A program made the translations under genes and the position numbers. Below the pieces are notes generated by a model. That model searched no databases. It was not told the DNA's origin and saw only the letters and a list, made by a program, of their open reading frames with translations. From NCBI RefSeq assembly GCF_000741535.1, contig NZ_JGYQ01000007.1, positions 310,001 through 374,000 on the forward strand: a stretch of DNA of 64,000 nucleotides, written 5' to 3'. Positions within the stretch are counted from its first letter, which is position 1. Each line of letters starts with the position of its first letter. Shown in pieces: positions 40,083 through 60,993 of the stretch. This DNA comes from Bifidobacterium boum (GTDB taxonomy: Bacteria; Actinomycetota; Actinomycetes; Actinomycetales; Bifidobacteriaceae).

Positions 40083-40526
40083 CTATTGGCCACCTGCCCG
40101 CCGTCTTTTCATCATGCTTTTTGCTTTGCGATATTTACTGGCATTGCTCCAGCCATGAGGCATACTCGCATGTTCACTCGTCTGATGTCCATCACCTTCG
40201 TTTTTCTGAGATGCATCTCTCATGCCTGTCGAATCTACGGTTTCCGTATTGCTACGAGCTGGCCTAACCATCAGTTCGAGTCCCTCGCAGTCTTTGGGAA
40301 TCCACTCTGCATTATGCACTCGGAACGCTAGATGCTGCTCGTTTCTTGCCGAATACACCATGATTGCTTTTCCCGTGCGCATCTGCCCTTCAATCCGCGC
40401 CCAAAGCTTTTCTCGTACCCTCGCCGAAACATGCCCGACAAACACGTCAGGAGCGATTTCCAACAGCCATCGTGTCAAATCACCACGCAGTCCGACCGGA
40501 CAGGCAGTAAGCACAACCACTATCAT
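40083..40526 (-). CDS. cas2: CRISPR-associated endoribonuclease-fold protein Cas2e
   Basis: Forms the Cas1-Cas2 integrase with Cas1. It starts MIVVVLTACPVGLRGDLTRW and has VGHVSARVREKLW, classic for the Cas2 of type I-E. About 147 residues, longer than the usual ~100 through a basic C-terminal tail (SKYRKAKSMMKRRRAGG). ATG 40526 with GGGAG upstream; a GTG one codon earlier is possible. Last gene of the cas operon, following cas1 by ~40 bp. Confidence 0.93.
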   Translation of the reverse strand: MIVVVLTACPVGLRGDLTRWLLEIAPDVFVGHVSARVREKLWARIEGQMRTGKAIMVYSARNEQHLAFRVHNAEWIPKDCEGLELMVRPARSNTETVDSTGMRDASQKNEGDGHQTSEHASMPHGWSNASKYRKAKSMMKRRRAGGQ

Positions 40527-40569
40527 CACGATCTCCCGTTGTCTTCATATCGGTGCGACTAGCAGAAAC

Positions 40570-41724
40570 TTAAATATTTGGTGCACCGAACTCATCGTCG
40601 ATTTCATCTGCATCATCGACTTCTTTACCATACGAAAAGCCAGCTCGCACTTCACCGAGTTTGTCATCCCAAAGTCCGACATGATCTTGCGTTTCAGCAT
40701 CAGCATCTGAGGAGTCTGTTAGCCTATCTCCCAGTAGATATTTGATGTCATGAACAATTCGTGGCAATAATGAACCATCGTATAATGCGTCTCGCATATT
40801 CCGCCGAGTATCCGCGCCGATATCCTCACTACCTTCTGCAACAGTGCGGAATGCGACCGGTATCGATATTTCAGCTTTATACAAGTCAGCAATATCGTAA
40901 ACGAATGATCGTTCATGACCGACATGGACAAATCCAAGACCAGGCGAACAACCCAAAGCAACAATGACCGCATGCGCGACACCGTACAGACAAGTATTGG
41001 CTGCCGACAATGCTTTATTTATGTCATTGCCTGCATCAAAATCGTTATGGTCGTATGTTCGTTGATCCCACTTGACTCCTGTCTCGTGAGACAACGTACG
41101 ATAGACTTTTCTGATTCTGGCGCCCTCACGGCCTCGCAGTTGTTGCATGGTAAGTGCAGAAACATCTTCCCCTGGGAATCGCATCTGGTACATCATTCGT
41201 GCGACCCTGAGTCTGCTCCTCGTATTCGAGACGAGCGCCGCTTGTTTCTGCAGTAGCGCAGACGAATGTGTCAGTGGACGTCCACATGCATACATGCGAA
41301 TTCCACGTTCCCCGACCCAGAGCACAGTCACACCGTTGGAGCTCAGCACCGTCATTGCCTGGTGAGTGACACGTGAACCCGGTCCGAGCATCAAGACGCT
41401 GAGAGTCGCAGCTGGAATATGGATGACACCGTTCTCATCTGTCATCGTCACAGCATTGTCTTTGCGCCCTACTGTGCAATGCTCGAAATATGCGAATGAC
41501 AGACGATCTTCAGCTCGCGCAAGTTCATCGACATCTGGTGGCGGACTACCAGGAATACCATTCTTCTTGTCTTTTCGTTGTTTCGGCAACGAAGCATCAG
41601 AAGGAGAAACAGCGGAACTTGTCGTGGAAGAGCTCAAGGATGTCATCCGAGAAGTCTCCATATTCCCCGATAATTGCTTTCCCACATGTTCCTGCTCCTC
41701 TGATGTCGGCTTCTCCTCAACCAT
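40570..41724 (-). CDS. cas1: CRISPR integrase Cas1e
   Basis: Spacer integrase. The core starts DRLSFAYFEHCTVGRKDNAV, has LGPGSRVTHQAMTVLSSNGV, the metal-site Glu in LRGREGARIRK, and His/Asp in GFVHVGHERSFVYDIADLYK. 384 residues; the first ~65 (Ser/Thr/Lys-rich, SSSTTSSAVSPSDASLPKQ) are an extension not seen in typical Cas1e of about 300 aa. The C-terminal ~50 residues are acidic. ATG 41724 is preceded by AAGGAG. Confidence 0.95.
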   Translation of the reverse strand: MVEEKPTSEEQEHVGKQLSGNMETSRMTSLSSSTTSSAVSPSDASLPKQRKDKKNGIPGSPPPDVDELARAEDRLSFAYFEHCTVGRKDNAVTMTDENGVIHIPAATLSVLMLGPGSRVTHQAMTVLSSNGVTVLWVGERGIRMYACGRPLTHSSALLQKQAALVSNTRSRLRVARMMYQMRFPGEDVSALTMQQLRGREGARIRKVYRTLSHETGVKWDQRTYDHNDFDAGNDINKALSAANTCLYGVAHAVIVALGCSPGLGFVHVGHERSFVYDIADLYKAEISIPVAFRTVAEGSEDIGADTRRNMRDALYDGSLLPRIVHDIKYLLGDRLTDSSDADAETQDHVGLWDDKLGEVRAGFSYGKEVDDADEIDDEFGAPNI

Positions 41725-41796
41725 TGCAACTCCTTCGAGAGATACGATGCCGAGCTACACGATAAGCAGCTCGGCATCATTACACGCAATCAGCCA

Positions 41797-42507
41797 TCAT
41801 TCCGATGTGCCCTTCGCGGCTGACCCGACGTGAATCGGAGCGACCGTTAAAAGACCACACCCGAATCCCTTGGCTCTGCCAATTCCGTGAGTGAGTGCTT
41901 TCCGGAACAAATCCGCATTTGTGACGGTCAAGTTGCCGTCGAACTGTGCCGTGCTCAACGTCACAGTGCCATTGCCATGACGGAAACGTTCCTTCCGGCG
42001 GTTCTTGACCTGGCATTGCAAATCATCCCCGGACCCATCGATGGAGAAGCCGTACTGCTCCGCGCGGTCCGACAACCATTTCAGTTGTTGGGCAGCAGTC
42101 ACCTCCCCCATGATTTTCCCAATCACAGCGGGATTTTCACTCCTGCCCAAATCATTCTTCACCTTGCGCACGGGATTCGCACGAAGTCTAAACGCCCAAT
42201 GCTGGCCTAAGGCGATTCGCCCCAGCAACGGCTGGTAATCGCGCGTCTCCCATTCTGGGTGGAGCGGCCAGCCAGCCTGCTCGACCACATGAGAGAAATC
42301 GGGTTTGTCAGGGCTGACCACGTACAGCCAGATCTGATGGGACTCCTTCAGTATGTCGACACGCCACAGAATCCTTCCCTCAGAATCGTTCCTCGGCGAG
42401 CTGGGAGGGAACGCATGCTCAACGGCCGAGTGCATGCAAGCCGGGGAAGCAAGGAGCTTCTTGGCCTCCAAACGCGCGGGATTGAGCGCAATCCTTGAAA
42501 TATACAT
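41797..42507 (-). CDS. cas6e: Pre-crRNA endoribonuclease Cas6e
   Basis: 236 residues. Cleaves below the repeat hairpin and stays in Cascade. MYISRIALNPARLEAKKLL start, RILWRVDILKESHQIWLYVV, and the glycine-rich RAMP motif LTHGIGRAKGFGCGLLTV near the end. A candidate catalytic His lies in ACMHSAVEHAF. Ten bp after cas5e. Confidence 0.95.
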   Translation of the reverse strand: MYISRIALNPARLEAKKLLASPACMHSAVEHAFPPSSPRNDSEGRILWRVDILKESHQIWLYVVSPDKPDFSHVVEQAGWPLHPEWETRDYQPLLGRIALGQHWAFRLRANPVRKVKNDLGRSENPAVIGKIMGEVTAAQQLKWLSDRAEQYGFSIDGSGDDLQCQVKNRRKERFRHGNGTVTLSTAQFDGNLTVTNADLFRKALTHGIGRAKGFGCGLLTVAPIHVGSAAKGTSE

Positions 42508-42517
42508 ACCTATACTC

Positions 42518-43300
42518 CTAGAAACTCATAGGGTCGTACCCATCCGGCGAGGAGAACAATGGCACCGAATCCTCATTATTCGAGATCGGCGTTGTCTCGT
42601 CGTATGGCACGGTGACTAGGCTGTGCACGACCCCTCGCACCGAATAGCGGCGGTGGACGGGATTGAAAGTGATCGGAACATCCTGTTGGAAGTACTGCGC
42701 TTCCTCGCCTTCGGCATCCCTGACCATTTCAAGTTGGATGCCTTTGGACTTCTCGAGATGGTTGCGCCGGCACATGCGGCTCTTGTACCAAGGCTGAGCA
42801 TGCCAAGGCTCACGGGTCAAGGCATCCTTCACATTGTCATAGTCATTCCGAATGCCTATGACAACACGCCCGGCCGGAGGACAGGAACGCCGTCCGAGGA
42901 ACAACGGCCATACAGGATTGTCGAGCGCATGCTCAAGGATCTCGAGCACTCCCCGGTCTTGTGCCGACAGAGCCACGACGAACAACGCATCAGAGATGTA
43001 ATAACGGTAGGTGACAGGCATCTCCGGCAACTCACCCTTGCTTCGCGTATTCTGCTGGTACATAGTTGCATGCTCTGTCTGGTAGTCACAAACGAGGCTT
43101 CCGCGCTGATCAGCTCGCACGCCGAATTCAAGCTTCAGCAGATCGGTAATGTCATCGTCCCGCTTTCTTCCCTGAGCACATGCAAGCATCCCGATGACAC
43201 CGCTTTTCGTAGGCTCCTGCCTCGTGTATCTGGAGTTGAATCGTGACGATTCCCCCCAGGCCTGGAGCGGCCCAGCCAATTGCAACAACAGAACGCTCAT
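42518..43300 (-). CDS. cas5e: Cascade subunit Cas5e
   Basis: 260 residues beginning MSVLLLQLAGPLQAWGESSR, the typical Cas5 opening, with KSGVIGMLACAQGRKRDDD and LFLGRRSCPPAGRVV. Caps the crRNA 5' handle in Cascade. Starts 3 bp after the cas7e stop with AGGAG inside the end of cas7e. Confidence 0.95.
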   Translation of the reverse strand: MSVLLLQLAGPLQAWGESSRFNSRYTRQEPTKSGVIGMLACAQGRKRDDDITDLLKLEFGVRADQRGSLVCDYQTEHATMYQQNTRSKGELPEMPVTYRYYISDALFVVALSAQDRGVLEILEHALDNPVWPLFLGRRSCPPAGRVVIGIRNDYDNVKDALTREPWHAQPWYKSRMCRRNHLEKSKGIQLEMVRDAEGEEAQYFQQDVPITFNPVHRRYSVRGVVHSLVTVPYDETTPISNNEDSVPLFSSPDGYDPMSF

Positions 43301-43303
43301 GGC

Positions 43304-44464
43304 TCACTCCTGGCTTAGTGCCTGTGGAACATCCGTCTTGAGGGCGTCCTGAAGTCCCTGCAGAGTCACGGTCTGCATATCGTCGGTGTCTTTCAGGCCG
43401 TCTTCGATGGTCATGAGATACATGTGGAGCGGCTGGTCACCATAGACGCTGTTGAACTTACCGTTCTCGTCGAGGAGCTTCTGTGCAGCGATGTGAGCGA
43501 CGGATTCTGTCCCATCACTCCTCACGGGTAGTTGGAAGGCGGTGACAAGGTTGACTGGTCGGGTGCTGCGGACGGTGACGAGCACAGTGCTGGGCAATGT
43601 CTGGTTCGCGTAGGAATTGATCTTTCCCGTCGGCATCGACTCGAGAAAAGCCTTGGCGAAAGCTGCAATGGCGACCGCCGTGGACTCAGCCGCATCGGTC
43701 CCCTCAGCAGTCAGCTGCTGCTCGAGTGCTGACGCATTGACCGTTGCAAAGCGGTAGAAGGTGCTGGAGTTGAAAGCATTCGTTTCAATCATGGCAGCAC
43801 CTGCATTATCTTCTGCCGCCTTGTCGTCCATCGCGGTGAAGTAATCGTATTCCGGCGTCAATTCATCCACCGAAATGGCATGTGCTACTTGGCATGATGC
43901 GTCTTGGTTGAGAGAAGGTGCGTCAGCGAGCATTCGCCCGAACAATGCGACATCAACCGCTTGTTTACCTTGGAAGGCCTTTTGAACATCCTTCTTGACG
44001 CTCTTTTTCATGTCTGCAATGCTTTGCCCATTCCTTAATGCGGCCACAGCCAAATCAGCAAGATCACTTATCGTGGTACCGCTAATGAAAAATAGTGACT
44101 TCGTGAGATACTCACCACTATCTGTATCCAGTTTCGTCACAGGTTGCGTTTTCTTGTTTTTATTTTCATTGATGGTTTCAAGAATCTCCCGAGCATATTC
44201 GGAGGATTCCTCACGATATTCCGGGGCTCTTTCGATAATTGCTTCGGAAATCAGCCGAACAACATGCATGGTGCGCACGCCTAAATCAAGCGCGGGAAGC
44301 TCACGAGTGAACTCATCGCGAATGGCATGCTTCCACGCCTGGCTCGAGACCCTAGCACGCTGCACACCGCCGAAATTGGCGGTTTTCGGGTTACCGGTAT
44401 CGTCACGGTTGATGCAGCTTGGCGGAACGGGCTGGAGGGCGTGGAAATCGACATAAACAGACAT
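43304..44464 (-). CDS. cas7e: Cascade backbone Cas7e (Cse4/CasC)
   Basis: 386 residues from ATG 44464 (AAAGGAG). Starts YVDFHALQPVPPSCINRDDTGNPK and ANFGGVQRARVSSQAWKHAIR, the signature of CasC. It later has QTLPSTVLVTVRSTRPVNLV. Six copies form the Cascade backbone along the crRNA and impose the flipped-out base at every sixth guide position, relevant to the crRNA-like element at 50399. Confidence 0.96.
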   Translation of the reverse strand: MSVYVDFHALQPVPPSCINRDDTGNPKTANFGGVQRARVSSQAWKHAIRDEFTRELPALDLGVRTMHVVRLISEAIIERAPEYREESSEYAREILETINENKNKKTQPVTKLDTDSGEYLTKSLFFISGTTISDLADLAVAALRNGQSIADMKKSVKKDVQKAFQGKQAVDVALFGRMLADAPSLNQDASCQVAHAISVDELTPEYDYFTAMDDKAAEDNAGAAMIETNAFNSSTFYRFATVNASALEQQLTAEGTDAAESTAVAIAAFAKAFLESMPTGKINSYANQTLPSTVLVTVRSTRPVNLVTAFQLPVRSDGTESVAHIAAQKLLDENGKFNSVYGDQPLHMYLMTIEDGLKDTDDMQTVTLQGLQDALKTDVPQALSQE

Positions 44465-44539
44465 GATGTACTCCTTTATGAGGTAGATGTATGAAATTGA
44501 TAAGGCATTCTGTCGGTTCAACCGACTGGATTAAGCAGA

Positions 44540-45256
44540 CTAGGCCGGTTGATTTTTCTTGGTCTTGGCCTGCTTGCGGGCAACTTCATCACTGCGTCTG
44601 GCGTGGTAGTAATCTCCGGCCCAGCGTTGCATCACCCTAGGCTTGGACTCCGGGAACTGCATCAGATAGAGATCGGATGCCAGCGAACCGTAATCCAGCA
44701 CGATAGTTCGATCCGCACCGCGCATCATAGTGATAAGCGATCTGATTCCGCGAACCATTCCGGGAAAATCGGAGACCGAATCCACAACAGCCATGCGACG
44801 CGTCACGGCATTGTCGGTATCGACCCTGCGAGCGCGTTTGTTGAACTCCGCCAACTCATAGCAGGCGGCGCCGAAACGATTACCTTTCCCCTCGGCATCA
44901 TCGGTTCCGCGCCAGGATGCGTGGACTCCCTCGCCTTTGGAACGCTGATGGATGGCATACAACTGCAGCGCTGTCTGGAAGGCGGTGACCGCCTGCTGCG
45001 GACCTCTGCCCAACTCACCGAGCTGGGTCTCGTCCCACCCATCGAAAAGTGCGGCAAGGAACATGTTGCCCACCTGCATCCAAGGGGATAGTATCTCGTC
45101 CTTCCGTAGTGTTGATAGAGCTGCAAGAGCGTCATGGTATGCGGCTCCTGCTCGGCTCAGGTACAGGCTCTGCAATTCCCCGACCTTCGCATCCGTGTAG
45201 CGGGCGACGGCACGGGCAACAGTATCGGAGCCATAGGTTCCAGTGGTATGAACCAT
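44540..45256 (-). CDS. cse2: Cascade small subunit Cse2 (Cas11e/CasB)
   Basis: 238 residues, helical. Features: SLYLSRAGAAYHDALAALSTL, ASWRGTDDAEGKGNRFGAAC and RRMAVVDSVSDFPGMVRGIRSLI. The length and Arg/Lys-rich end fit actinobacterial CasB. Adjacent to cas8e with a 1-bp gap and upstream of cas7e. Confidence 0.93.
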   Translation of the reverse strand: MVHTTGTYGSDTVARAVARYTDAKVGELQSLYLSRAGAAYHDALAALSTLRKDEILSPWMQVGNMFLAALFDGWDETQLGELGRGPQQAVTAFQTALQLYAIHQRSKGEGVHASWRGTDDAEGKGNRFGAACYELAEFNKRARRVDTDNAVTRRMAVVDSVSDFPGMVRGIRSLITMMRGADRTIVLDYGSLASDLYLMQFPESKPRVMQRWAGDYYHARRSDEVARKQAKTKKNQPA

Positions 45257-45257
45257 A

Positions 45258-46982
45258 TCAGTCCTCCTTTGTCGCGTCTGTTGATTGGAAATCCGTCAGC
45301 TTGCCAAGACCAAATTCCTCGTTGGCGAAATACCCGAGAAGCTTGACGTATAGGTCGCCGACAGCGATTTCGGAGCCTCCAACCTTACGCTTGGCAATCC
45401 AAGATCCTCCCGTGCCCTGGAAGTAGTGCTCCGCCAGCCTGATAAGCAGCCGATGGGCCTCGTCGCGCCATTGGGTTTCCAATGCCTCGGCATTGTCGTC
45501 CGCGATGGTGCGAAGATAGTTCCGGCACAGGGCATCGAGCGCGTAGTAGGCTTCCGCGCGAATGCTCGCAGAGAAAGCCTCGTAACGATTGAGCGTAGTC
45601 TTGTTGCGAGCAAGTCCATGTACCCGAGTGACGCTATTAGCCAATTCATTCACGCAGTTCTCGATGCGTTTTAAAACGTCCAACACCACGGATAGTGCGG
45701 ACACATCGTCTCTGCGTACCAACGCCTTGTTAAGGTCGAGCTGTTCGTCAACGCTGTCTTCATACACACTGTTCTGGGTGCCGTAGGTCATGCCCTGGGC
45801 ATGGATTGCGACGATTTGCGGAAGGAAGGAATCCGAAAAGTCATCGTCCTCCTCATCGTCATCATTCATCATGAGTTCGTTCACCCACGTCAGAACACCT
45901 GCTCGGGCTTGGCCTGAGGCCTCGGAATTCGGAAACGGAAGGACGGATGCCAGGCCTCGCCACAGCGCTTTCTTCGGATCATGCGTCTTCGGAACACGCG
46001 TTCCTTCGGGAATTCCCAAGGACTCGCCTTGTTTCTTGCTTGCGAGCCTCCACAAGGTCATGGTCTCGAACCTTGCCATGTCATTGGGATCCGGCTGCGC
46101 CCCGTATCCGATGACGACGCCGGTCACGGCATTCCCATCATCGGAAGGAATCAAGCGCACTCGACGCGATGTGAAGGTGAACAGATCCGCAGGGCCAGTC
46201 AGTCGCCTTCTGTCCATAGAAGAGATCGCTTCCCTCTCCCAAACCGGCGCATCGCCGACAAGAGCAAGGAACGGTACCTCGCCACTCTCAACATACATGA
46301 CCCAATTCATCATGAGTGTCTCGAAGAGATTGGCTCGTTCCAGATATATGCCTCCGCAGAGTCCCAGCGCCCCAGTCGAAATCTGGCCCTTGGGAGCATA
46401 TTCCCTGCCGCTCCTCGCTGTCGTGCTTCCAGCAAGCGGAGTTTTGATACCTGCACAGTCGTATGCCTGAATAGCGAGCAGCCATACCGCCGCCTCGGGG
46501 CAAGAGAGGGATTCCACGGAGCCTTTGGAACGGAGAGAGAAAAGAAACTTGTTGTCATTATCAGGCAAATCAATAACTATCCTCCCGATGTCATCGACAT
46601 CATCACTGTTTTTGCCTTGATAAGAAAGACCCGCCTCCTGCATGAATGGTTTGTCACCGCCAATCAGGTAGAAACGGTCATGAACACGTTGCAGGTATGA
46701 ACCAATGACAGATACATCGAAGTGACCCGTCTTCCAAATCTTCCCCCAGACATGTTTCGTTTCCCCATGCTTGATACCTTCACGCTGATAGCAACGGTAC
46801 AACACCGCAAGCATGAATCTTAGAATCAAGATAATACCTTGCGAAAACTCGGGGACGATGCGTCGGATATCCGACGCATCCTCGAATGCCTTCTGTAAGG
46901 AAACCTTTCTCTTGGTGCCGTCGGAATATTCCACGTCGATCCAATCTTCGTCGATGAGATTGAATTGTGGTTGAGGAACCAT
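45258..46982 (-). CDS. cas8e: Cascade large subunit Cas8e (Cse1/CasA)
   Basis: 574 residues. NLIDEDWIDVEYSDGTKRKVSLQKAF is the typical Cse1 start. FYLIGGDKPFMQEAGL, KTPLAGSTTARSGREYAPKG, VMYVESGEVPFLALVGDAPVWE and the C-terminal four-helix bundle follow. It reads the PAM. GAAAGGAGG precedes ATG 46982. A 72-bp AT-rich gap separates it from cas3 and carries the match to the 50428-50447 guide. Confidence 0.95.
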   Translation of the reverse strand: MVPQPQFNLIDEDWIDVEYSDGTKRKVSLQKAFEDASDIRRIVPEFSQGIILILRFMLAVLYRCYQREGIKHGETKHVWGKIWKTGHFDVSVIGSYLQRVHDRFYLIGGDKPFMQEAGLSYQGKNSDDVDDIGRIVIDLPDNDNKFLFSLRSKGSVESLSCPEAAVWLLAIQAYDCAGIKTPLAGSTTARSGREYAPKGQISTGALGLCGGIYLERANLFETLMMNWVMYVESGEVPFLALVGDAPVWEREAISSMDRRRLTGPADLFTFTSRRVRLIPSDDGNAVTGVVIGYGAQPDPNDMARFETMTLWRLASKKQGESLGIPEGTRVPKTHDPKKALWRGLASVLPFPNSEASGQARAGVLTWVNELMMNDDDEEDDDFSDSFLPQIVAIHAQGMTYGTQNSVYEDSVDEQLDLNKALVRRDDVSALSVVLDVLKRIENCVNELANSVTRVHGLARNKTTLNRYEAFSASIRAEAYYALDALCRNYLRTIADDNAEALETQWRDEAHRLLIRLAEHYFQGTGGSWIAKRKVGGSEIAVGDLYVKLLGYFANEEFGLGKLTDFQSTDATKED

Positions 46983-47044
46983 CTGTACCTCCTTTCGATG
47001 GCAATAACAATATCACATTATCAATACGACACAGATATTTATTT

Positions 47045-47058
47045 TATTAACTTATCAT
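47045..47058 (-). promoter_or_regulatory. Probable Cascade target site for the crRNA-like guide, upstream of cas8e
   Basis: On the minus strand ATGATAAGTTAATA (47058 down to 47045) matches the first 14 guide bases ATGATCAGTTACTA except at 6 and 12, exactly the positions not read by Cascade. The three bases on the PAM side are AAC. The site lies 63-76 bp before the cas8e start codon, overlapping the cas3 stop, in the only AT-rich gap of the operon. Promoter hexamers here are not clear. Confidence 0.75.
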
Positions 47059-50000
47059 GTTCTCTTTGTTTCACCGTTTTCAACGCTAAGCCCCGTTTCT
47101 CGGGAATACCACACATGCTTACCTGTCAATGTGCTGCCGAATGCATCATCGCCCTCTTGATCCATCACCAACAGCAATCTTCCTCCGAGCCACGCAGAGT
47201 CTTGCCAGTTTCTTACATACTCCTCACAGCGATTCTCAAGCTCGCCGATGAGCGTATCCACATCGGAACAGACGGAAAGCGGAAGTCTAACGGCACATTG
47301 AATGAGTTTGACGGACACATCGTCAGGAGGCACCTCTCCTGTCGGAAGTTCCCGTCCTTCCATAACCCACGGCAGCAAGGCAAGATGATCACCACACCGG
47401 CGAACAAGCAGGACCTCCACGGTATCGTGAGTGTCACGCACCGTCATCTGCCCTTTCTCCTCCTCGTTATTCGCAGCGTCGCCTTTCTGGACAGCGTCCC
47501 CATCTTCCCACGGCTCACCGCTGGAATTCTGTATCACAGGGTCGTGCAGAAGATACCCCTGCGCCTTAGCCTCTTTGCTCCCAATCGTCCTACGCCGTTC
47601 GTTACAATCCTTCAGATACTCCTCGCGCCATGATTGAGGAACATGTAATTCCTCGATGCGAGTCGTATCATCATCTTCGTAGGCACTCCTTACCAACGGA
47701 GCAATGTCATCTGGCAGATGCACCGTCGAATGCGCTGAAACCCCGTAATACCCCAATGTTTCCAGCGCTTCCTTGAGACTTGCCTGTTCATACACCATCG
47801 TGAGCACCTTAGGAAAAACGGGACCCGTCTCACCCCATCGATCGATTCCACGGATATAGCATCGGGCGATACGCAATCGCTCCGGCCTGTCACATTCCCC
47901 ATCCCCGCGATGATGGCGATGAACCCTACCCAGACGCTGCATCACCAAATCGATAGGAGCGATGTCGGTGACAAGAACGTCGAAATCAATGTCAAGCGAT
48001 TGCTCAAGCACCTGGGTTCCGACGACGATATACTTCCCCGGGCGCTCACCGTTTGCCCTCGTTGCCTTCGGCCCAAGCTTCTGCCTTAAACCGGCCTCAT
48101 TATTCATCCTGTCACAATCGACAAAGCGAGAGTGCGACAGCGTCACGCATTCCTTGCCAAACACCCCTTTTAGAGCTTCATACATGTTCTGTGCCCTGCC
48201 GACAGTATCACAGATGACTCCGGCGCAGCCGCCATCCGCCAAACGTTCCCGCAAAGTCCGAACAGTTGCGGAAACATCATCATCGATGACAGCGCATTCA
48301 ACCGCCGTCTTCCTGCCCGATGGGTCGGCTGTACACGATTGCACCGTCAACCCATCCGTATACGTAATAACGGGGTATGCGTTCTTGTCCAATACCGGCA
48401 GATTATCCATCTGGCTGTCGGAACACGCTGCTCCCCGGAGATATGCCGACGCTAAAGTATTTCTCAACTTGTCGGACAGCGTAGCAGACAACAAAATGAC
48501 CGGCGCATGACAACCGCCCAGCCATTCCAACGCACGCTGGAGATACTGCTGCATGTAAGCATCATAGGCATGGCATTCGTCAATAATCACAACCTTGTTC
48601 GCCAGCCCCAATTGCCGCAACATGACATGTTTCATGCGCAAAGCCGCCATGAGCACCTGATCGACAGTACAGACGAGGAAGTTCGCAAGTACGCCCCTCT
48701 TCCTCCCCGAAAACCAATCGTTGACAACCGCCTGCTGCGTAGCATTTATCGCTGCGCCTCCTGTACCGACTGCATTATTATCCAAGTCCATACCGATGTC
48801 TTGGAAACGATTGGCTCGCATCATTTCTGCGTAGGTTTTGTTCAGCCAAGCCTTTCCGTGGGCCAGGAACATGGTGCGTTCGTTCGCTGACGATTCCGTG
48901 TCTTGTCCGAGTCTGTTGACCCAAGCATTGACTCGTTCGAACATAGCGTCAGTGGTCGCCATGGTCGGCAGTGCCACGCAGACGCCTCCGCGCTCCGCCT
49001 TATGAGCAAAAATCTCGGCAACCGCGAGCGCCGCCTCCGTTTTCCCTTCGCCCATGGGAGCCTCGATGATCATGATACCAGGATCTTTCACATTGCGCGC
49101 TATGTCTGTTGCAATTCTTTGGACAGGTCGCGGCTGGGCATGCGCCGGGAAACTGAAACGCTCCGCGAACAGTTCCTCGTCGGTCTGTGGCATCGCGTTC
49201 TCTTTCCACGATGGCGGCAAGTCGAGTTTCCTCCACGCCCTGTCCGCACGCTTCCGCAATCCTTCTGAAGTTTCAATGAACGAACATTCGTACAACAGTG
49301 CGGCCCCTCTGTCCGAATCTTCGTCGCAGTCATATGGCCGCGCGGGAATGAGCGGGAAATACAATGTGTTGCTCGCAATCCAATCCGACATGATCACGAT
49401 GCCGGTAATCAGGGACTGGCTCTCCGTGCTGAGAAGTGTAGTCGGCTCGTCATGGATATGAAGGTCACGCAAGTAATTCAGGTCATCATCGTCAAGATGT
49501 GCTAGGGTCCGCACGTAATCAATCAGCTCAAATTGGACAGACTGCCACGCCTTATTCTTGGCGTTGTCTTTGTTGAACTTCCCGGCTTTACCGGGATTAC
49601 TGTTGTAGAAGCCACAACGGATATCCCATCTCTTGACTTGCTTGAGCGATCCATCAGTCTGCGCCCTCGGCGTATGGGGAATCGGGATCTTCCCATGATG
49701 GGCTGCAAGGATTCCTCCTAAGAAACGTGCCTTTTTTAGCTTCCAACCGTATTTCGACAGGTAATCGACCAGCAATCTATCTCCGATGACAGGATGCCCC
49801 AGCCACTGCTCGCCCTTGGATTGAACCCGTGAATCACCAATGAAGGGAAGTCCCGTATCCCGCAACTTCCACATCAGGTTCTCCTCTTCGCCACTTCCCC
49901 ATGTCTGGGACTGGAACTCCGGTGACGCTTTACCGAGGTCATGGATTCCTGCGAGGAACGTCACCAGACTTCGAGCAAGGCGTGCATCGCCATTGCAGTC

Positions 50001-50180
50001 CGCGATGATGATGTCTTTCGTTCCCTGGGGCATCCACCCATCCCAAAGATGTTCGCAGGTATACAGAGAATCTGTCATATGCACATACAGCGGGAGCCAC
50101 AGAGGCCCGGCGATTCCGTCGGATTGTCCTCGATCGCTTTTTGCCCACAACGATGCGGCTACAGCACTCACACCTTGCAT
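47055..50180 (-). CDS. cas3: CRISPR nuclease-helicase Cas3
   Basis: 1041 residues. N-terminal HD nuclease: FLAGIHDLGKASPEFQSQ, ILAAHHGKIP. The helicase has Walker A EAPMGEGKTEAALAVAE, DEAH-like VIIDECHAYDAYM, SAT motif VILLSATLSDKLR, motif V/VI VVGTQVLEQSLDIDFDVLV and QRLGRVHRHH. ATG 50180 follows GGGGGGCGTG. First gene on the cas strand; cas8e follows after 72 bp. Divergent from the crRNA-like RNA at 50399. Confidence 0.96.
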   Translation of the reverse strand: MQGVSAVAASLWAKSDRGQSDGIAGPLWLPLYVHMTDSLYTCEHLWDGWMPQGTKDIIIADCNGDARLARSLVTFLAGIHDLGKASPEFQSQTWGSGEEENLMWKLRDTGLPFIGDSRVQSKGEQWLGHPVIGDRLLVDYLSKYGWKLKKARFLGGILAAHHGKIPIPHTPRAQTDGSLKQVKRWDIRCGFYNSNPGKAGKFNKDNAKNKAWQSVQFELIDYVRTLAHLDDDDLNYLRDLHIHDEPTTLLSTESQSLITGIVIMSDWIASNTLYFPLIPARPYDCDEDSDRGAALLYECSFIETSEGLRKRADRAWRKLDLPPSWKENAMPQTDEELFAERFSFPAHAQPRPVQRIATDIARNVKDPGIMIIEAPMGEGKTEAALAVAEIFAHKAERGGVCVALPTMATTDAMFERVNAWVNRLGQDTESSANERTMFLAHGKAWLNKTYAEMMRANRFQDIGMDLDNNAVGTGGAAINATQQAVVNDWFSGRKRGVLANFLVCTVDQVLMAALRMKHVMLRQLGLANKVVIIDECHAYDAYMQQYLQRALEWLGGCHAPVILLSATLSDKLRNTLASAYLRGAACSDSQMDNLPVLDKNAYPVITYTDGLTVQSCTADPSGRKTAVECAVIDDDVSATVRTLRERLADGGCAGVICDTVGRAQNMYEALKGVFGKECVTLSHSRFVDCDRMNNEAGLRQKLGPKATRANGERPGKYIVVGTQVLEQSLDIDFDVLVTDIAPIDLVMQRLGRVHRHHRGDGECDRPERLRIARCYIRGIDRWGETGPVFPKVLTMVYEQASLKEALETLGYYGVSAHSTVHLPDDIAPLVRSAYEDDDTTRIEELHVPQSWREEYLKDCNERRRTIGSKEAKAQGYLLHDPVIQNSSGEPWEDGDAVQKGDAANNEEEKGQMTVRDTHDTVEVLLVRRCGDHLALLPWVMEGRELPTGEVPPDDVSVKLIQCAVRLPLSVCSDVDTLIGELENRCEEYVRNWQDSAWLGGRLLLVMDQEGDDAFGSTLTGKHVWYSRETGLSVENGETKRT

Positions 50181-50359
50181 ATTCACGCCCCCCAATCAAC
50201 CGTGATCGGTAATTTTCAAGCTTCTGCGCTACATCAAAGAATGATAGCCATGCGCATAGACTGTCGGAAACGACCAGTGACACGCGACACCATCAACACT
50301 CTCGGCACCAATTGATTTCCTGGCATACCCTTCATCGACCACATTTCGAGGTATGGCGA

Positions 50360-50388
50360 CAAGACCATGACGAATGAGGCCATATAAT
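50360..50388 (+). promoter_or_regulatory. Promoter of the crRNA-like RNA
   Basis: Perfect TATAAT at 50383-50388 with AAGACC at 50361-50366 (16-nt spacer) as a weak -35. Predicted start near 50395, just before the first degenerate repeat. Confidence 0.65.
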
Positions 50389-50398
50389 AGATGGGTCA

Positions 50399-50476
50399 CT
50401 GTTCCCGATATTCATCGGGATGATCCCATGATCAGTTACTATGAGCAATGTTCCCCGCACTTGGCGGGGTGTATTT
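50399..50476 (+). ncRNA. Stand-alone crRNA-like RNA (CreR/CreA type)
   Basis: Two 29-nt degenerate CRISPR repeats (50399-50427 and 50448-50476) flank a 20-nt spacer, ATGATCAGTTACTATGAGCA. Repeat 1 differs from the array repeat in the stem, yet still pairs (CCCGAT/ATCGGG with ATTC loop, against CCCCGC/GCGGGG in the array) and keeps the full handle ATGATCCC. Repeat 2 keeps CCCCGC/GCGGGG and loses the handle, ending TGTATTTT like a terminator. The orientation is opposite to the array. Cas6e cutting would give a short guide RNA with a normal 5' handle. The guide matches the cas8e upstream gap (47045-47058). I infer Cascade autorepression; a toxin partner was not found. Confidence 0.85.
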
Positions 50477-50812
50477 TGCCTCGCCAACAATAAGATTTCC
50501 ACAGACAGCTCCAATATTTCGGACGCATTCAAATCGGAATATCACTAAGACGTTCTTCAAACGTCGAAGATGGCACTCGCATCGATTCATTAACCGAAGG
50601 CTAACACACTATGCCCATGATGTCTTAACTTCGCAAACTATGACATACATGAAAACACGCGACAACGTCAGACATTCCACGTATTTCACCGGTCTCCCAG
50701 CCAAGATCTTGTCGTGATGCATCTGCCGCGGTAGGCCCTCTCCATAAGTTCTGCCCCTTCCCACAGGAAAAGGAAACTTACCGGAATCTTCAGCGCCATG
50801 CGGCGCGACGGT

Positions 50813-50898
50813 GGTGGCTGATGGATTCGAACCAGCAAGCAAGGCATCATGTATCCGGCTTAAAACCGAACGTCCTCAACCACTCAGACAAACTTATC
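50813..50898 (-). pseudogene. Degenerate tRNA-Ser-like sequence with UUA anticodon
   Basis: The minus strand has TGTCTGAGTGGTTGAGGA (D-arm of tRNA-Ser type), an anticodon arm TTCGG-TTTTAAG-CCGGA (anticodon UUA), a long variable region, T-arm GCTGG-TTCGAAT-CCATC with one mismatch, and AGCCACC plus A at the 3' end. The 5' acceptor strand (ATAAGTT) no longer pairs with AGCCACC in the outer four positions and CCA is not encoded. Probably a dead tRNA, perhaps from a phage or mobile element. Confidence 0.6.
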
Positions 50899-51237: not shown

Positions 51238-51287
51238 TGTCGTCCTTTCTTCCACATGACCAATCCGGAAAACGCAACGTCGGAAGC

Positions 51288-51321
51288 AAAAAGTTCCCGT
51301 CGCACCTACCGGCGGGAACTT
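51288..51321 (-). terminator. Terminator behind the CRISPR array
   Basis: Perfect 9-bp stem AAGTTCCCG/CGGGAACTT (51291-51299, 51313-51321) followed on the minus strand by TTTTT. It lies about 180 bp beyond the last (oldest) repeat in the direction of array transcription. Confidence 0.8.
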
Positions 51322-51504
51322 CCCTCAATCCTAACCAATTTTGGACATCATCAGCAAGATGAAAACATGCATCTTAACTCGTGAACACCGTGTCCGCCGA
51401 TGCCAGCACCAGCATGCCCGTCGGACTGACGCCGACGCCCATCACGTAATCATTCCCGTATACATGGAGAATACGGTTTCCGGGCACCCACTCGCATTGT
51501 TATT

Positions 51505-54500
51505 GAAATCATCCCCGCATGCGCGGGGAACACATCTCCACGAAGTACCCCACGATCGACAACCCGGGATCATCCCCGCATGCGCGGGGAACACCCAGCG
51601 CCGACGGGCTGACCAAGACCGTGTACACGGGATCATCCCCGCATGCGCGGGGAACACCATACGCTCGACCGGAACGCCGACCGCAACCAGGGATCATCCC
51701 CGCATGCGCGGGGAACACAGGACGGAATCGCGTCGCGCTATATCACGTCCGGGATCATCCCCGCATGCGCGGGGAACACGTCCGCGTAGACCTTGCCGTA
51801 CACGCCCCAAAGGGATCATCCCCGCATGCGCGGGGAACACTGGTTGGTGCTGACGGACGGTGCTTGCGTTGGGGGATCATCCCCGCATGCGCGGGAAACA
51901 CGCGTTCCTCGTTAGGCCATGACCAGTGATTGAGGGATCATCCCCGCATGCGCGGGGAACACTTGGTCGCGGTCGATTTCCTCGGAGTATGACCCGGGAT
52001 CATCCCCGCATGCGCGGGGAACACTCAATGGCAGTGAGAGGGGTAACAATGGCTATGGGATCATCCCCGCATGCGCGGGGAACACACCTGAGTCGCTGAA
52101 GCTCACTCACGTTGATCAGGATCATCCCCGCATGCGCGGGGAACACGACGTGAAGCATATTCGCCCCGCCGATTCGTAGGGATCATCCCCGCATGCGCGG
52201 GGAACACACGGCACACCATACGCGCACGTCGGACGAGACGGGATCATCCCCGCATGCGCGGGGAACACCTTCACCGACTCGTTCCCGCAGTCCTGCGCCT
52301 GGGATCATCCCCGCATGCGCGGGGAACACGATTGATGTCATGGTTCAACAGCCTCTCAGATGGGATCATCCCCGCATGCGCGGGGAACACAGTTACTCAA
52401 TGTACATATAGATACTCTTTTGGGGATCATCCCCGCATGCGCGGGGAACACGGTGCGGGTCTGGCGTGACCCCACCCAGGCGGGGGATCATCCCCGCATG
52501 CGCGGGGAACACTTTTTGGACTGCGGTCGAGTATGCGCTCACACAGGATCATCCCCGCATGCGCGGGGAACACCGTCCGGTAGATGTGGTCGATGTCGAG
52601 TCGCGCGGATCATCCCCGCATGCGCGGGGAACACGGTGGCGCGCAGGAGGTAGCGTGCGGCCTTCTGGGATCATCCCCGCACGCGCGGGGAACACACAAC
52701 AAACTGATACACAATCCGATACTAAAAGGGATCATCCCCGCATGCGCGGGGAACACCGGGCAGTTGGATGCGGGCGAGCGTGTGGAGTGGGATCATCCCC
52801 GCATGCGCGGGGAACACGAATCGGCGCGGATGCCGGTCGCATCGGTCGTGGGATCATCCCCGCATGCGCGGGGAACACGCAAATGCCGGTGGGATGTTGC
52901 TGTGCATGTCGGGATCATCCCCGCATGCGCGGGGAACACAATTAGCTTTGTCACAGCGTCGGATACCTTGCGGGATCATCCCCGCATGCGCGGGGAACAC
53001 GCGATCTACGGCAAGGTGTTGAAGGGCGGGGAGGGATCATCCCCGCATGCGCGGGGAACACAGTGACCGAACGTCGACGATTTTAAATCTCTCGGGATCA
53101 TCCCCGCATGCGCGGGGAACACAACGTGACCGTCATGCTGTTCCTTGTAGAGTCGGGATCATCCCCGCATGCGCGGGGAACACGGCAAGGCGATACTGTG
53201 CGACGTCCTGCACTGGGGATCATCCCCGCATGCGCGGGGAACACAGGAACTGTTTTATGCGCGACGCGATGTGCAGGGGATCATCCCCGCATGCGCGGGG
53301 AACACTGGCAATCAAACGACGTAATTGAACCGGAAAAGGGATCATCCCCGCATGCGCGGGGAACACTCCGAAACCACGATAGTATCCCGGAAGTCGATGG
53401 GATCATCCCCGCATGCGCGGGGAACACGCATTTATTGGGGCGTGCAGCGTAATCTGCCGGGGATCATCCCCGCATGCGCGGGGAACACGTGTTCGGTTCC
53501 GCGATGGGCGGGTCCATGCCGGGATCATCCCCGCATGCGCGGGGAACACTTGGAGGTAATGGGTGATGGATGATAATAGGGGGGATCATCCCCGCATGCG
53601 CGGGGAACACTAATGTGTATGGTTTTTTTGACGCTCTGTGGAGGGATCATCCCCGCATGCGCGGGGAACACCCGGCCACGTCTCGCGTACCCTGCACTGT
53701 ATTGGGATCATCCCCGCATGCGCGGGGAACACTGGATGGTATTCATTGTTGCAATAGCAATATGGGGATCATCCCCGCATGCGCGGGGAACACCCACGCA
53801 GTTTATAGTATCACGACTCACTCTCGGGATCATCCCCGCATGCGCGGGGAACACCCGCCGCCGCGCCGGTCGCATTTATCCGCACCGGGATCATCCCCGC
53901 ATGCGCGGGGAACACCCCTCTGACGGTGGAATCAACACTAAAGTTGCGGGATCATCCCCGCATGCGCGGGGAACACATCGTGTTCATGTTCTCCGCTTGG
54001 CGCATCTCGGGATCATCCCCGCATGCGCGGGGAACACTCGGAACTCAATCCGACACCGACCATGAGCATGGGATCATCCCCGCATGCGCGGGGAACACTT
54101 TTTACAATTTTAAATATGAAGTGCACAGAAGGGATCATCCCCGCATGCGCGGGGAACACGTTCTCCTTCCACACTTTCGCCCGCTCCCCGTGGGATCATC
54201 CCCGCATGCGCGGGGAACACCCTATGAGTGTGTGCAAGGGTTCCGGCTTGGAGGGATCATCCCCGCATGCGCGGGGAACACTTCGACGCGCTGACCGACA
54301 AGGGTGAGAAGGCGGGATCATCCCCGCATGCGCGGGGAACACAGACGCAACGCGGTGAACGTGTGGCCGTCCAGGGGATCATCCCCGCATGCGCGGGGAA
54401 CACGAGTGCCGCTGGTATTCGTCCGACGGCAAGACGGGATCATCCCCGCATGCGCGGGGAACACACAGGCGGCCGACCGCCCAACGCTCCGTATCCGGGA

Positions 54501-57500
54501 TCATCCCCGCATGCGCGGGGAACACCAGGTCAACCGCAAGACCTGCACGACATGGTTGGGATCATCCCCGCATGCGCGGGGAACACGCCGCCCCGCAGAG
54601 CATCAACGGCGTCGACCCGGGATCATCCCCGCATGCGCGGGGAACACAGCCATTGGACGTGACTGGGGCGGAGCCGCCGGGGATCATCCCCGCATGCGCG
54701 GGGAACACGAATTCAATGGCTTGCTAAGGCGTTCGACAGCGGGATCATCCCCGCATGCGCGGGGAACACTGGTATGAAGCCGGATACGAGAACACCAACC
54801 CGGGATCATCCCCGCATGCGCGGGGAACACTTTCGAGAGCTATCTCACCGACGAACTGAACAAGGATCATCCCCGCATGCGCGGGGAACACACGGTATGC
54901 AGGTTGTCAGATTTCAACGAATTGGGATCATCCCCGCATGCGCGGGGAACACTATGACACGGCGGTCGAAGGATTCTACGAATCGGGATCATCCCCGCAT
55001 GCGCGGGGAACACAAAACCCAACCGCGCTTAGCATCGGTGCCACTGGGATCATCCCCGCATGCGCGGGGAACACGAAAATTCGACTTCAAGAAGTATGTT
55101 GATGCGGGGATCATCCCCGCATGCGCGGGGAACACTCAGCGTTCTCGAGCTGGACCGTGGCGTATTCGGGATCATCCCCGCATGCGCGGGGAACACATCG
55201 GTCTATCGCGTCCTTCCTATCCTTCCCGGGGATCATCCCCGCATGCGCGGGGAACACCCGCCCGCGTGCCCCGCAACACACGACGCATCGCGGGATCATC
55301 CCCGCATGCGCGGGGAACACCCGACGCAAACCAACATTGCCATCCATCAGCCGGGATCATCCCCGCATGCGCGGGGAACACCCACGACACCGTGTAACCC
55401 GTCATCGGATCATGGGATCATCCCCGCATGCGCGGGGAACACTCTTGCCACCACCATTCAGACTATTCTTCGGCGGGATCATCCCCGCATGCGCGGGGAA
55501 CACTGCACAGGTAATGCCATCAAGTACTTGTGGCGGGGATCATCCCCGCATGCGCGGGGAACACTAAGAGCCGACCACGTGCGCAACGTTGTCGTTGGGA
55601 TCATCCCCGCATGCGCGGGGAACACGGGCGCAAATACTGGATGCACGTCATGCTGACAGGATCATCCCCGCATGCGCGGGGAACACCCTATGGTGGCGCG
55701 AAGTCTTTCGGCAAGGCGGGGATCATCCCCGCATGCGCGGGGAACACCCGAAAATCATGTGGATGTAGTCCGCGTGAGCGGGATCATCCCCGCATGCGCG
55801 GGGAACACTGATAAAAAGACGTGAGATTATCATTCAGCCGGGGATCATCCCCGCATGCGCGGGGAACACCACGCTTGCAGACTATCGTCGGCGGCAAGCG
55901 TGGGATCATCCCCGCATGCGCGGGGAACACGCAGGTGAAATTGAACCAACTTACCTACGAGAGGGATCATCCCCGCATGCGCGGGGAACACCATGATGTC
56001 GGTCTCCATCTGAGAGACCGCCCGGGATCATCCCCGCATGCGCGGGGAACACCCAATCAGAAGGTAGCGGGATTGCCGCGTTAGGGGATCATCCCCGCAT
56101 GCGCGGGGAACACAAAGAATTGCCAACCAAGGAAGGAATAGAACTGGGATCATCCCCGCATGCGCGGGGAACACTAATGACCGGCTGCACTCCTGGGTGT
56201 TCGGGCGGGATCATCCCCGCATGCGCGGGGAACACTCGTCGAAGCTGTCATAATCGAGGGCGAGGGCGGGATCATCCCCGCATGCGCGGGGAACACTTGA
56301 TGCTTGCCGCCGGCGCGTTGAGCGTCATGGGATCATCCCCGCATGCGCGGGGAACACGTGAACAAGGCGCTCGACTCGCAGCTTGGCACGGGATCATCCC
56401 CGCATGCGCGGGGAACACCGACAAGACCAGACCGCGACCGGCGCACGGCGGGGATCATCCCCGCATGCGCGGGGAACACTACGGCGACATCCCCGTCACC
56501 CTCAAGCCGGTGGGATCATCCCCGCATGCGCGGGGAACACTGATTTACCATTTTCTTTTCTCTCTTTCATATGGGATCATCCCCGCATGCGCGGGGAACA
56601 CACTCATAAAGATACTCGTACTGGACTCAAAAAGGGATCATCCCCGCATGCGCGGGGAACACCATCTTGCGCTGGAAACCGCGCTTGGTGGTCTGGGATC
56701 ATCCCCGCATGCGCGGGGAACACATCTCGCTGCATCTCATATCGAATAGACGTTAGGGATCATCCCCGCATGCGCGGGGAACACACCTTGAGGACTGCGC
56801 GGAGGATGTCATCGCGGGGATCATCCCCGCATGCGCGGGGAACACCCCACTCACTGCCGCATCATACGTGGACGCGAGGGATCATCCCCGCATGCGCGGG
56901 GAACACACCTCGTCGCAGCGCACAACCTGGATTTTATGGGGATCATCCCCGCATGCGCGGGGAACACAGCATCACGACGGACAAGGTCGCCGCCGGGCAA
57001 GGATCATCCCCGCATGCGCGGGGAACACTATGAGTCATTTAGTGCTTTTATTGCAACGCAGGGATCATCCCCGCATGCGCGGGGAACACATTTCACTCAT
57101 TTCAGAGTCCTTTCAGATTTGGGGATCATCCCCGCATGCGCGGGGAACACCTCTTGACTGACGCGACGACACTATTCCACACGGGATCATCCCCGCATGC
57201 GCGGGGAACACATCTCTGTCGTCGGCTGCCAGCCCGTGAAGCCGGGATCATCCCCGCATGCGCGGGGAACACTCCCAATAGGTGAGATGGAGGACGTCCT
57301 TGCCGGGATCATCCCCGCATGCGCGGGGAACACTGTGTCGTTTTGCGAAATGCCCTATACTTAGAGGGATCATCCCCGCATGCGCGGGGAACACTTTGTC
57401 CAACAGAGCCGACGTGATAGTGATATGGGATCATCCCCGCATGCGCGGGGAACACATGTCATGCTCCGATACCATGATGCCCATTCTGGGATCATCCCCG

Positions 57501-60500
57501 CATGCGCGGGGAACACCGGTAGCATGTTGGCTCGTTGTTGCTGCTGAGGGGATCATCCCCGCATGCGCGGGGAACACGATTATACAGCGGCAATCAGACT
57601 TGCAGGTGAGGGATCATCCCCGCATGCGCGGGGAACACCGACCTGTACTGCGATCGCATCGGCGTGTCACGGGATCATCCCCGCATGCGCGGGGAACACT
57701 CCAGTCATGCTCCTTGCAATGCTCGAGCATGGGGATCATCCCCGCATGCGCGGGGAACACCTTACGGAGTGTGGGAAGTCGTGTCCTGAGTCGGGATCAT
57801 CCCCGCATGCGCGGGGAACACCCTGTCGCGTTGAACATGTCGCCGAGCTGACTGGGATCATCCCCGCATGCGCGGGGAACACGTGGTGGAGCGCGTATCC
57901 GCTGCCATCACCCGGGGATCATCCCCGCATGCGCGGGGAACACTCGGCGGCCGCGCGCGGCATACCGGTGCCGACGGGATCATCCCCGCATGCGCGGGGA
58001 ACACACCGGCCACAACTGGCGTCCCGCGTTCAACCTGGGATCATCCCCGCATGCGCGGGGAACACGCCTTGATGTTGTTGATTCCCGTGCTGATGGCGGG
58101 ATCATCCCCGCATGCGCGGGGAACACTTCTGTCATCATGTTCGGTGCGCGTGAGAAGGGGGATCATCCCCGCATGCGCGGGGAACACGTGCCTTCGCCTT
58201 TGCCAAGCCCGATAAGATGGGGATCATCCCCGCATGCGCGGGGAACACCCAGTGTCAATGCCGGAAACAAGCCTCGGCGTGGGATCATCCCCGCATGCGC
58301 GGGGAACACTGCGCGAATGACATCGGCAGGGCCACCGGCCGGGGATCATCCCCGCATGCGCGGGGAACACGTCCGGGCTCGCATCCAAAGTCGGCGGGGC
58401 ACGGGATCATCCCCGCATGCGCGGGGAACACTTTCTGGGTTATTGGTTGACTTGTCGTGTGCAGGGATCATCCCCGCATGCGCGGGGAACACCTTGACTG
58501 TCGCCTGACCGGCAGCCCCGCATGGGGATCATCCCCGCATGCGCGGGGAACACGTCGTGGCACCGCTGTTCTCGATCAGCCTACCGGGATCATCCCCGCA
58601 TGCGCGGGGAACACATTCGAACCCCCAGACACTCCACCACAAAAACGGGATCATCCCCGCATGCGCGGGGAACACCGTATCCTCGAACGCCTCGCTGACG
58701 TACACGTGGGATCATCCCCGCATGCGCGGGGAACACGTCACCGCCGGCCATGTGAGTCCCGCACACTCGGGATCATCCCCGCATGCGCGGGGAACACTCG
58801 GACAGTCTCGACATGCCGTTCGACATGCCGGGATCATCCCCGCATGCGCGGGGAACACTTGCGCGACATACTGGCGACCGTCAACGACAAGGGATCATCC
58901 CCGCATGCGCGGGGAACACGCCGCTGAGAAAAGCGCGGAAAGCACGGCGCAAGGATCATCCCCGCATGCGCGGGGAACACGGCCGTTATCGGAATGGGCG
59001 AAGGGTCAGGCAGGGATCATCCCCGCATGCGCGGGGAACACATCGCGATGGGTGAACCGCCGTTCGACGGCGAGGGATCATCCCCGCATGCGCGGGGAAC
59101 ACTATCAATACTTGCACGTTTACCGGGCGTTTGGGGGATCATCCCCGCATGCGCGGGGAACACTCCCGTGTGCTGGGACGGTTACGGCTACCGGCGGGAT
59201 CATCCCCGCATGCGCGGGGAACACGCGGACCCGGACACTGGCAGGAACACGTACCTGGGATCATCCCCGCATGCGCGGGGAACACTGGCGGCATGTCACA
59301 TCACCAGCCACATGAGCGGGATCATCCCCGCATGCGCGGGGAACACAATATCAGCGATTACGCTGAGCCGGTCGCTCCGGGATCATCCCCGCATGCGCGG
59401 GGAACACTACTCGGCGAACGCCGGGGCGTGGATCCGCACGGGATCATCCCCGCATGCGCGGGGAACACTGTGGGGCAATTGGTCTTGATCCTGCTGTGAC
59501 GGGATCATCCCCGCATGCGCGGGGAACACAACACGCGCGGCCGGCGTCGTGGCTGCGCGATGGGATCATCCCCGCATGCGCGGGGAACACGAGTCCATTG
59601 CGGCCCACCCTGATATGAGCGCGGGATCATCCCCGCATGCGCGGGGAACACTCACCGGCGGACGCAATCGCCTCAGTGCCCTGGGGATCATCCCCGCATG
59701 CGCGGGGAACACGCCGGGCCGGTCTACGGTGGCGGGTATCCATGGGGATCATCCCCGCATGCGCGGGGAACACCTTGTCTGGCGCGGGCAGTGTGACGCT
59801 GCCCGGGGATCATCCCCGCATGCGCGGGGAACACCGATAATGACGGTGTGGCTTTCGTCGCACTGAGGGATCATCCCCGCATGCGCGGGGAACACCACGT
59901 ATCACGATCTGCGGCATACTGCGGCGAGGGATCATCCCCGCATGCGCGGGGAACACTCAGGCGTGCACGACACGCCCATCGCCAACGCGGGATCATCCCC
60001 GCATGCGCGGGGAACACTCAGTCAGAGTCATTGCATTGTTATTGTTGTTGGGATCATCCCCGCATGCGCGGGGAACACGCCTGCCCGATCTAACGTACAA
60101 TGATGTCGTCGGGATCATCCCCGCATGCGCGGGGAACACAGCGGCGTGAAAATGCACACCGACTACCGTGCGGGATCATCCCCGCATGCGCGGGGAACAC
60201 CGAATGAGCCACGATGACATGCGGCAGGTGACGGGATCATCCCCGCATGCGCGGGGAACACGTCTGGATGGTGCCGCCGGTGATGGTGACGCCGGGATCA
60301 TCCCCGCATGCGCGGGGAACACGAAGGCGACAAGAAGTCAGCGTCCGACGCGACGGGATCATCCCCGCATGCGCGGGGAACACGACGCCTGCCCAGGCAT
60401 GAGTGACTTGGATTGGGGATCATCCCCGCATGCGCGGGGAACACGTCGGCTGTCTGTTTGGCGGCCTGGTCGAGTTGGGATCATCCCCGCATGCGCGGGG

Positions 60501-60993
60501 AACACTGGTGGACGAGACGATGGACAAGGCGCAGGATGGGATCATCCCCGCATGCGCGGGGAACACGGACAAGCGCAAGACGGCCGCGGTGCTCGTCCGG
60601 GATCATCCCCGCATGCGCGGGGAACACTCAGCGACGCCCAATCGAGATGCGGGTCAGATAGGATCATCCCCGCATGCGCGGGGAACACGCTCTCGCCCCT
60701 GATGTGCGGCGTGTCCTTTGGGGATCATCCCCGCATGCGCGGGGAACACGCACGTATGCGGAAGGCGAGCCGGACAATTCGGGGATCATCCCCGCATGCG
60801 CGGGGAACACGGACACGCTGGTCAGCAACGCGAACCGTGACCGGGATCATCCCCGCATGCGCGGGGAACACACATTTCTTGGTGGTTCCAGCCCGCAAGC
60901 GCCGGGATCATCCCCGCATGCGCGGGGAACACGTTAGGGTGGCTGGCTTGGTGCCTTGTCTTGCGGGATCATCCCCGCATGCGCGGGGAACAC
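51505..60993 (-). CRISPR. Type I-E CRISPR array, about 156 repeats and 155 spacers
   Basis: A 29-bp repeat (plus-strand form begins GGGATCATCCCC and ends CGCGGGGAACAC) recurs every 61 bp for 9.5 kb. Spacers are mostly 32 bp, with a 34-bp one at 51595-51628 and a few of 33. The count is from the period (155 intervals over 9460 bp). In crRNA sense (minus strand) the repeat ends GGGGATGATCCC, giving the handle ATGATCCC. The repeat at 51505-51533 is degenerate (GAAATC instead of GGGATC), so the left end is the trailer. Single-base variants occur in repeats ending at 51901 (GGGAAACAC) and 52695 (GCACGCGC), both near the old end. Spacers do not look alike and none is an obvious duplicate. Confidence 0.98.

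Follow-up and report, generated by a model that had tools for sequence, protein, structure and literature searches.

A mini-CRISPR with a 20-nt guide and its predicted target ahead of cas8e in the type I-E locus of Bifidobacterium boum, with counterparts in related Actinomycetales

The window, a 64,000-nt stretch of the Bifidobacterium boum genome, holds a type I-E gene set that is complete on the − strand according to family models (cas3, cse1, cse2, cas7e, cas5e, cas6e, cas1e, and cas2e). The models for casA, casB, casC, casD, casE, cas1e, and cas2e scored above their cut-offs; for cas3 (47055..50195, −), the core-helicase and HD models passed and the cut-off of the full-length model PRK09694 was not reached. 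An AT-rich gap of 72 bp separates cas3 from cas8e (cse1; 45258..46982, −), and cse2, cas7e, cas5e, cas6e, cas1e, and cas2e occupy 40083..45256 (−). The main array lies upstream of cas3 (51505..60993, crRNA sense on the − strand) and is very long: a single pattern recovered 154 repeats, and two 93-nt intervals that look like single spacers probably each conceal one divergent repeat, suggesting that the true number is higher. Among its 153 handles, 145 read ATGATCCC, seven ATGATCCT, and one ATGATCCG.

Adjoining the cas genes, on the strand opposite to the main array, is an orphan mini-CRISPR of two degenerate repeats (50399-50477, +). The first repeat, psiR1 (50399..50427, +), forms a hairpin (CCCGAT/ATCGGG) with a stem that differs from the usual one, and carries a perfect 8-nt handle, ATGATCCC, at 50420-50427. 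The second, psiR2 (50448..50477, +), keeps the usual stem (CCCCGC/GCGGGG) intact and has lost the handle. Between them sits a guide of 20 nt, ATGATCAGTTACTATGAGCA (50428..50447, +), 12 nt shorter than the array spacers. Folding the unit recovers both hairpins at −26.5 kcal/mol (z −2.0; 6 of 200 shuffles were as stable). A TATAAT at 50383..50388 (+) may serve as its −10 element and has no good −35; a promoter scan at the mini-CRISPR found no full promoter. Behind psiR2, TGTATTTT resembles a terminator (one such element, compared with 0.4 on average in shuffles). Rfam gave no matches in 46900-51600. By eye, we also noticed a tRNA-like remnant at 50810-50890 (−) with a T-arm-like GGTTCGAATCC, where ARAGORN calls no tRNA.

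The original prediction held that this guide matches a site in front of cas8e, with mismatches only where Cas7 flips bases out of the duplex. The site at 47045-47058 reads TATTAACTTATCAT on the + strand; its reverse complement, ATGATAAGTTAATA, pairs with the start of the guide, ATGATCAGTTACTA (50428-50441, +), at positions 1-5, 7-11, 13, and 14. Within guide positions 1-14, every one of the 12 that are not flipped thus pairs at 47058-47045 (−), the mismatches within this stretch are confined to positions 6 and 12, and the pairing ends after 14, as had been claimed (over all 20 guide positions, the mismatches fall at 6, 12, 15, 16, 18, and 19). This target (protospacer; 47058 to 47045, −) shares bases with both the stop codon of cas3 and the gap that separates cas3 from cas8e, and so lies between these two genes, ahead of those for Cascade, Cas1, and Cas2.

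The PAM-side AAC named in the same prediction is present at 47059..47061 (−). AAC is among the Bifidobacterium I-E PAMs in the tabulated portion of PMC8482600, and the targets of relatives described below carry AAN. The array spacers gave no PAM, so the assignment rests on those relatives and on that table. Comparing 51490-59480 (about 8.0 kb of the 9.5-kb array, repeats included) with phage records returned 29 records, mostly repeat-like matches over many array positions; one 32-nt match at 90.6% involved seven Ruegeria/Silicibacter phage records (E 0.7). When 30 of the 153 spacers were compared with 112 genomes of the genus, they matched their own array, and 48 other genomes gave partial hits of some 19-30 nt.

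The guide-target match was confirmed as real and well above chance. In the cas3-cas8e stretch (46983-47075, 93 bp), 12 of 12 pairs were reached by 4 of 200,000 shuffled guides and by one of 20,000 dinucleotide-shuffled stretches. The longest run reached there by any of the 153 array spacers was 7, and their best score in the 10.4-kb cas locus, both strands included, was 10. Throughout the draft genome (2.17 Mb, 18 contigs), the pattern ATGATNAGTTANTA fits perfectly at the guide itself and at the cas8e target, and nowhere else. A single fit with one mismatch, at a non-flip position, lies at 51065-51052 (−), about 0.6 kb from the guide. With the PAM included (AANATGATNAGTTA), the cas8e target is the sole perfect fit, and three further places show one mismatch; no better match with a PAM was found in this draft.

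A cas8e match was present in 33 of the 112 Bifidobacterium genomes (the window's own included), the nearest being 42% identical. We fetched 36 longer I-E loci of the genus, several truncated by contig ends, and recognised a mini-CRISPR in 27 (L038 and L056 are doubtful) and none in the other nine, some of which are cut by contig ends. As many as 24 of these 27 match a site ahead of their own cas8e, cas3, or an extra gene just before cas3, with AAC, AAG, AAT, or AAA as PAM; L038, L056, and L058 have no accepted target. Guides and targets vary between species, each guide still fitting its own target. Such co-change between relatives, which we had set as an expectation for a CreR (a crRNA-like regulatory RNA), speaks for the original prediction, which had proposed a check of co-variation in related strains. 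When guides were swapped among promoter regions, none of 28 foreign guides scored as well on the window's target, and in 19 of 29 loci no foreign guide equalled the resident one; weaker pairs were L034 and L039 (one of 28 foreign guides as good in each) and L064 (two of 28). The promoter-limited score failed for L040, L057, L060, L061, and L065, whose targets were found by a locus-wide search of AAN sites; L057 and L060 are weak, at 10 of 14 matches.

Several arrangements were seen among these loci. In L049, as in the window, the mini-CRISPR sits on the opposite strand and upstream of cas3, and its target, mismatched at 6, 9, and 12, lies ahead of cas3. In L060, L061, and L065, an extra reading frame, about 410-450 aa long, stands between the target and cas3. 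Comparison by eye indicated that the cas3-cas8e gap of L043 (G006) lacks the segment that holds guide, target, and −35 box in its relative L041, while a −10-like TATTGT remains.

Beyond the genus, a mini-CRISPR and target are also present in an Olsenella record (L034), and 64 of the order's 396 genomes gave a Cse1 match. Of 20 longer loci chosen from these, 12 combine a mini-CRISPR with an AAN site that its guide matches, either close by or on the far side of cas3. The joint detector gave no hits in 755,288 bases of reversed sequence; two of its forward hits, L058 at 6947 and L121 at 5687, look chance-like. It also gave no hits in 30 order loci with 1.5-kb flanks, perhaps because most of them stop short of the stretch upstream of cas3. 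In L112, guide and target are just 28 nt apart, and this pair may be spurious. In L113 and L115, the target is present twice for a single guide, at distances of 22 and 27 nt, and this duplication might make repression stronger.

Every sixth crRNA base is flipped out of the duplex (PMC5904413), and the mismatches between guides and targets follow this period. Across 23 pairs (the window, Bifidobacterium, and Olsenella), positions 1-12 contain 44 mismatches, of which 33 are at 6 or 12, against a permutation mean of 7.3, and none of 100,000 permutations reached 33, in a test that treats related species as independent although they are not fully so. With sites selected irrespective of where their mismatches fall, position 6 is mismatched in 17 of the 23 pairs and position 12 in 16. 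This set excludes near copies and L038, which passed the numerical rule with a site that is 772 nt away and lies outside any cas promoter; L042 and L047, which share one guide, were both kept. Of these pairs, at least L034, L035, L036, L039, L049, L050, L052, and L054 were first spotted by eye together with their targets. The position-neutral test took for each guide the AAN site within 4.2 kb that had the highest plain match count over positions 1-14; L066, L069, and L071 were omitted because they nearly duplicate L067/L070 (in L071, another site ranks first by this count, and the cas8e target was seen only in the promoter-limited search). The rule was passed by 36 of 38 guides, with 0, 2, 1, 0, 1, 27, 0, 1, 8, 3, 2, 27, 8, and 9 mismatches at positions 1 to 14; the detector that supplied 12 order-level guides to this test takes no account of positions 6 and 12, and we therefore prefer the 23-pair figure as less biased. 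The concentration at 6 and 12 is what flipping of every sixth base predicts (PMC5904413).

Guide length is similarly structured. Among 39 mini-CRISPRs (27 including the window and Olsenella, 12 from the order, related ones included), 31 guides measure 20-21 nt and eight measure 32-33 nt, with none between, although 9-39 nt were allowed. The 12-nt step between the classes equals two Cas7 footprints. In a type I-F1 system, spacers obey the rule L = 6N − 4, and the nuclease is not engaged by R-loops of up to 26 bp (PMC7296934). According to the same source, type I-E is less restricted, so carrying the I-F1 rule over to I-E is an extrapolation; on that rule, a 20-nt guide would go with four Cas7 subunits.

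The unit, its match, the PAM, the uniqueness of the site, and the co-change in relatives are all read directly from the sequences, and they suggest that the CRISPR complex very probably represses its own production through the orphan guide. Our main reading, to which we assign a probability of roughly 85%, is that the orphan unit gives rise to a CreR-type regulatory RNA, resembling a crRNA, that autorepresses the cas8e operon. Its predicted steps are transcription, processing, loading, binding, repression, and competition. The mini-CRISPR would be transcribed from the + strand and cut by Cas6e after the first hairpin, leaving the handle ATGATCCC and an RNA predicted to start AUGAUCCC-AUGAUCAG, which would be loaded into Cascade. 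The complex would recognise AAC and the seed at 47061-47045, with about 14 nt paired, too few to license Cas3. In Escherichia coli, I-E Cascade binds with five seed pairs plus a PAM, whereas interference needs 18-25 bp (PMC5904413). Cascade held at the start of the cas8e operon would block initiation or elongation and, since this operon encodes Cascade itself, would close a negative feedback loop that leaves the upstream cas3 unaffected. Negative feedback on cas8e-cse2-cas7e-cas5e-cas6e-cas1-cas2 had been predicted originally, and the match, PAM, uniqueness, and co-change across the genus argue for it. Array crRNAs would compete with this RNA for Cascade, and a larger crRNA load should therefore lift the brake.

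How binding would repress depends on what the target covers. The window's target overlaps the −10 of a weak cas8e promoter candidate (TTGAAA-18-CATGAT; 47054..47083, −), which is not above chance (one found, against a shuffle mean of 0.6). Against the CreR reading, this candidate promoter scored 9.3 on one scan, whereas promoters scoring at least 10 lie at 8 of the 13 antisense targets found in Bifidobacterium and Olsenella; the window's target also lies on the operon-sense strand, 3.4 kb from the guide, where most relatives differ. The loci of the genus in which no mini-CRISPR was recognised, or no target for one, count against it as well. At 9 of these 13 antisense targets, the complement of the PAM (GTT, or ATT in L047) begins one base ahead of a −35 hexamer whose promoter has a 17-nt spacer. 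In L041 it lies four bases further off, and in L034, L067, and L070 the scan picked another promoter. In the sense targets of L052, L057, L059, and L064, the kind to which the window belongs, the target covers the −10. A variant of the CreR reading, with odds that overlap those of the main one, is that Cascade mainly acts as a roadblock to read-through from cas3 into cas8e. The overlap with the cas3 stop codon and the weakness of the gap promoter speak for it; the AT-rich 72-bp gap and the relatives' targets, which overlap or adjoin promoter-like sequences, speak for a promoter there, and we consider the variant unlikely, at about one chance in four.

Three further explanations fare much worse. 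The anatomy is identical to that of a CreA-type antitoxin guarding a toxin gene (CreTA or CrePA), and the one-mismatch site at 51065-51052 is close by. That site, however, has CGG in place of AAN and lies within an 80-aa reading frame, the perfect match sits at the cas operon, and no toxin gene with a promoter matching guide and PAM was found in the draft genome, which makes this reading very improbable. Slightly less probable still is that a leftover spacer resembles a site near cas8e by chance: the AT-rich gap does raise random matches somewhat, as the single successful shuffled stretch illustrates, but the rarity of the match, its PAM, its uniqueness in the genome, and its recurrence in most mini-CRISPRs of the genus weigh against coincidence. 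About as improbable is that the unit is a functionless decayed end of the main array. Its degenerate repeats and its distance of about 1 kb from the leader-distal array end would fit this, but the unit runs opposite to the array, decay has spared precisely the repeat 1 handle and the hairpins, its guide is 20 rather than 32 nt long, and its target is kept.

The best reading of the orphan unit is that it is this system's CreR, autorepression of this kind being already known for type I-E. CreRs have been reported for types I-B, I-E, and V-A (PMC13131331), and are described as sensors both of crRNA load and of Acr proteins (PMC12737573, PMC12948488). Like the CreRs outlined in the review texts, the unit is a degenerate-repeat mini-CRISPR beside cas genes, with limited complementarity and a PAM ahead of its own cas operon, and with predicted autorepression. 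In the CreA of haloarchaeal I-B CreTA, psiR1 likewise keeps the handle and psiR2 loses it, and Cascade is guided to repress (PMC9458426); CreA, however, targets a toxin gene, and haloarchaeal repeats lack the conserved hairpin that the orphan unit keeps. The parallel extends in principle to type II. There, the long-form tracrRNA takes Cas9 by a short RNA match to its own promoter without cutting. That system is tracrRNA-based, and its parts are unrelated to the orphan unit. Auto-repression of SpyCas9 is mentioned in PMC13131331.

Among the matches listed in a literature search for CreR, type I-E, and Bifidobacterium, no paper combined CreR with the genus, and a 2026 review of Bifidobacterium CRISPR systems contains neither 'CreR' nor 'autoregul' in its text. 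We did not meet the flipped-base signature, the 20-21/32-33-nt lengths, or the Actinomycetales spread in the excerpted CreR literature, which came from searches aimed at other subjects. It is thus only probable that a CreR in Bifidobacterium is unpublished.

The interesting part is the evolutionary signature across Bifidobacterium and other Actinomycetales. It offers a natural, multi-species record of the guide positions on which Cascade binding in cells depends: in the pairs found, positions 6 and 12 vary freely, and 1-5, 7, and 8 are nearly constant. More tentatively, and at somewhat less than even odds, Actinomycetales I-E systems may keep a dedicated short-guide repressor, in which a guide of 20-21 nt, two 6-nt Cas7 steps short, would form a smaller Cascade that binds promoters without licensing Cas3. 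In many Bifidobacterium cas promoters, the PAM would lie within the −35 box, so that the target could not easily be lost without losing the promoter. The predicted loop implies that Bifidobacterium cas expression would follow crRNA load, here about 150 array spacers against one brake RNA. For native I-E editing in bifidobacteria, removing the orphan unit could be tried as a way to raise Cascade levels.
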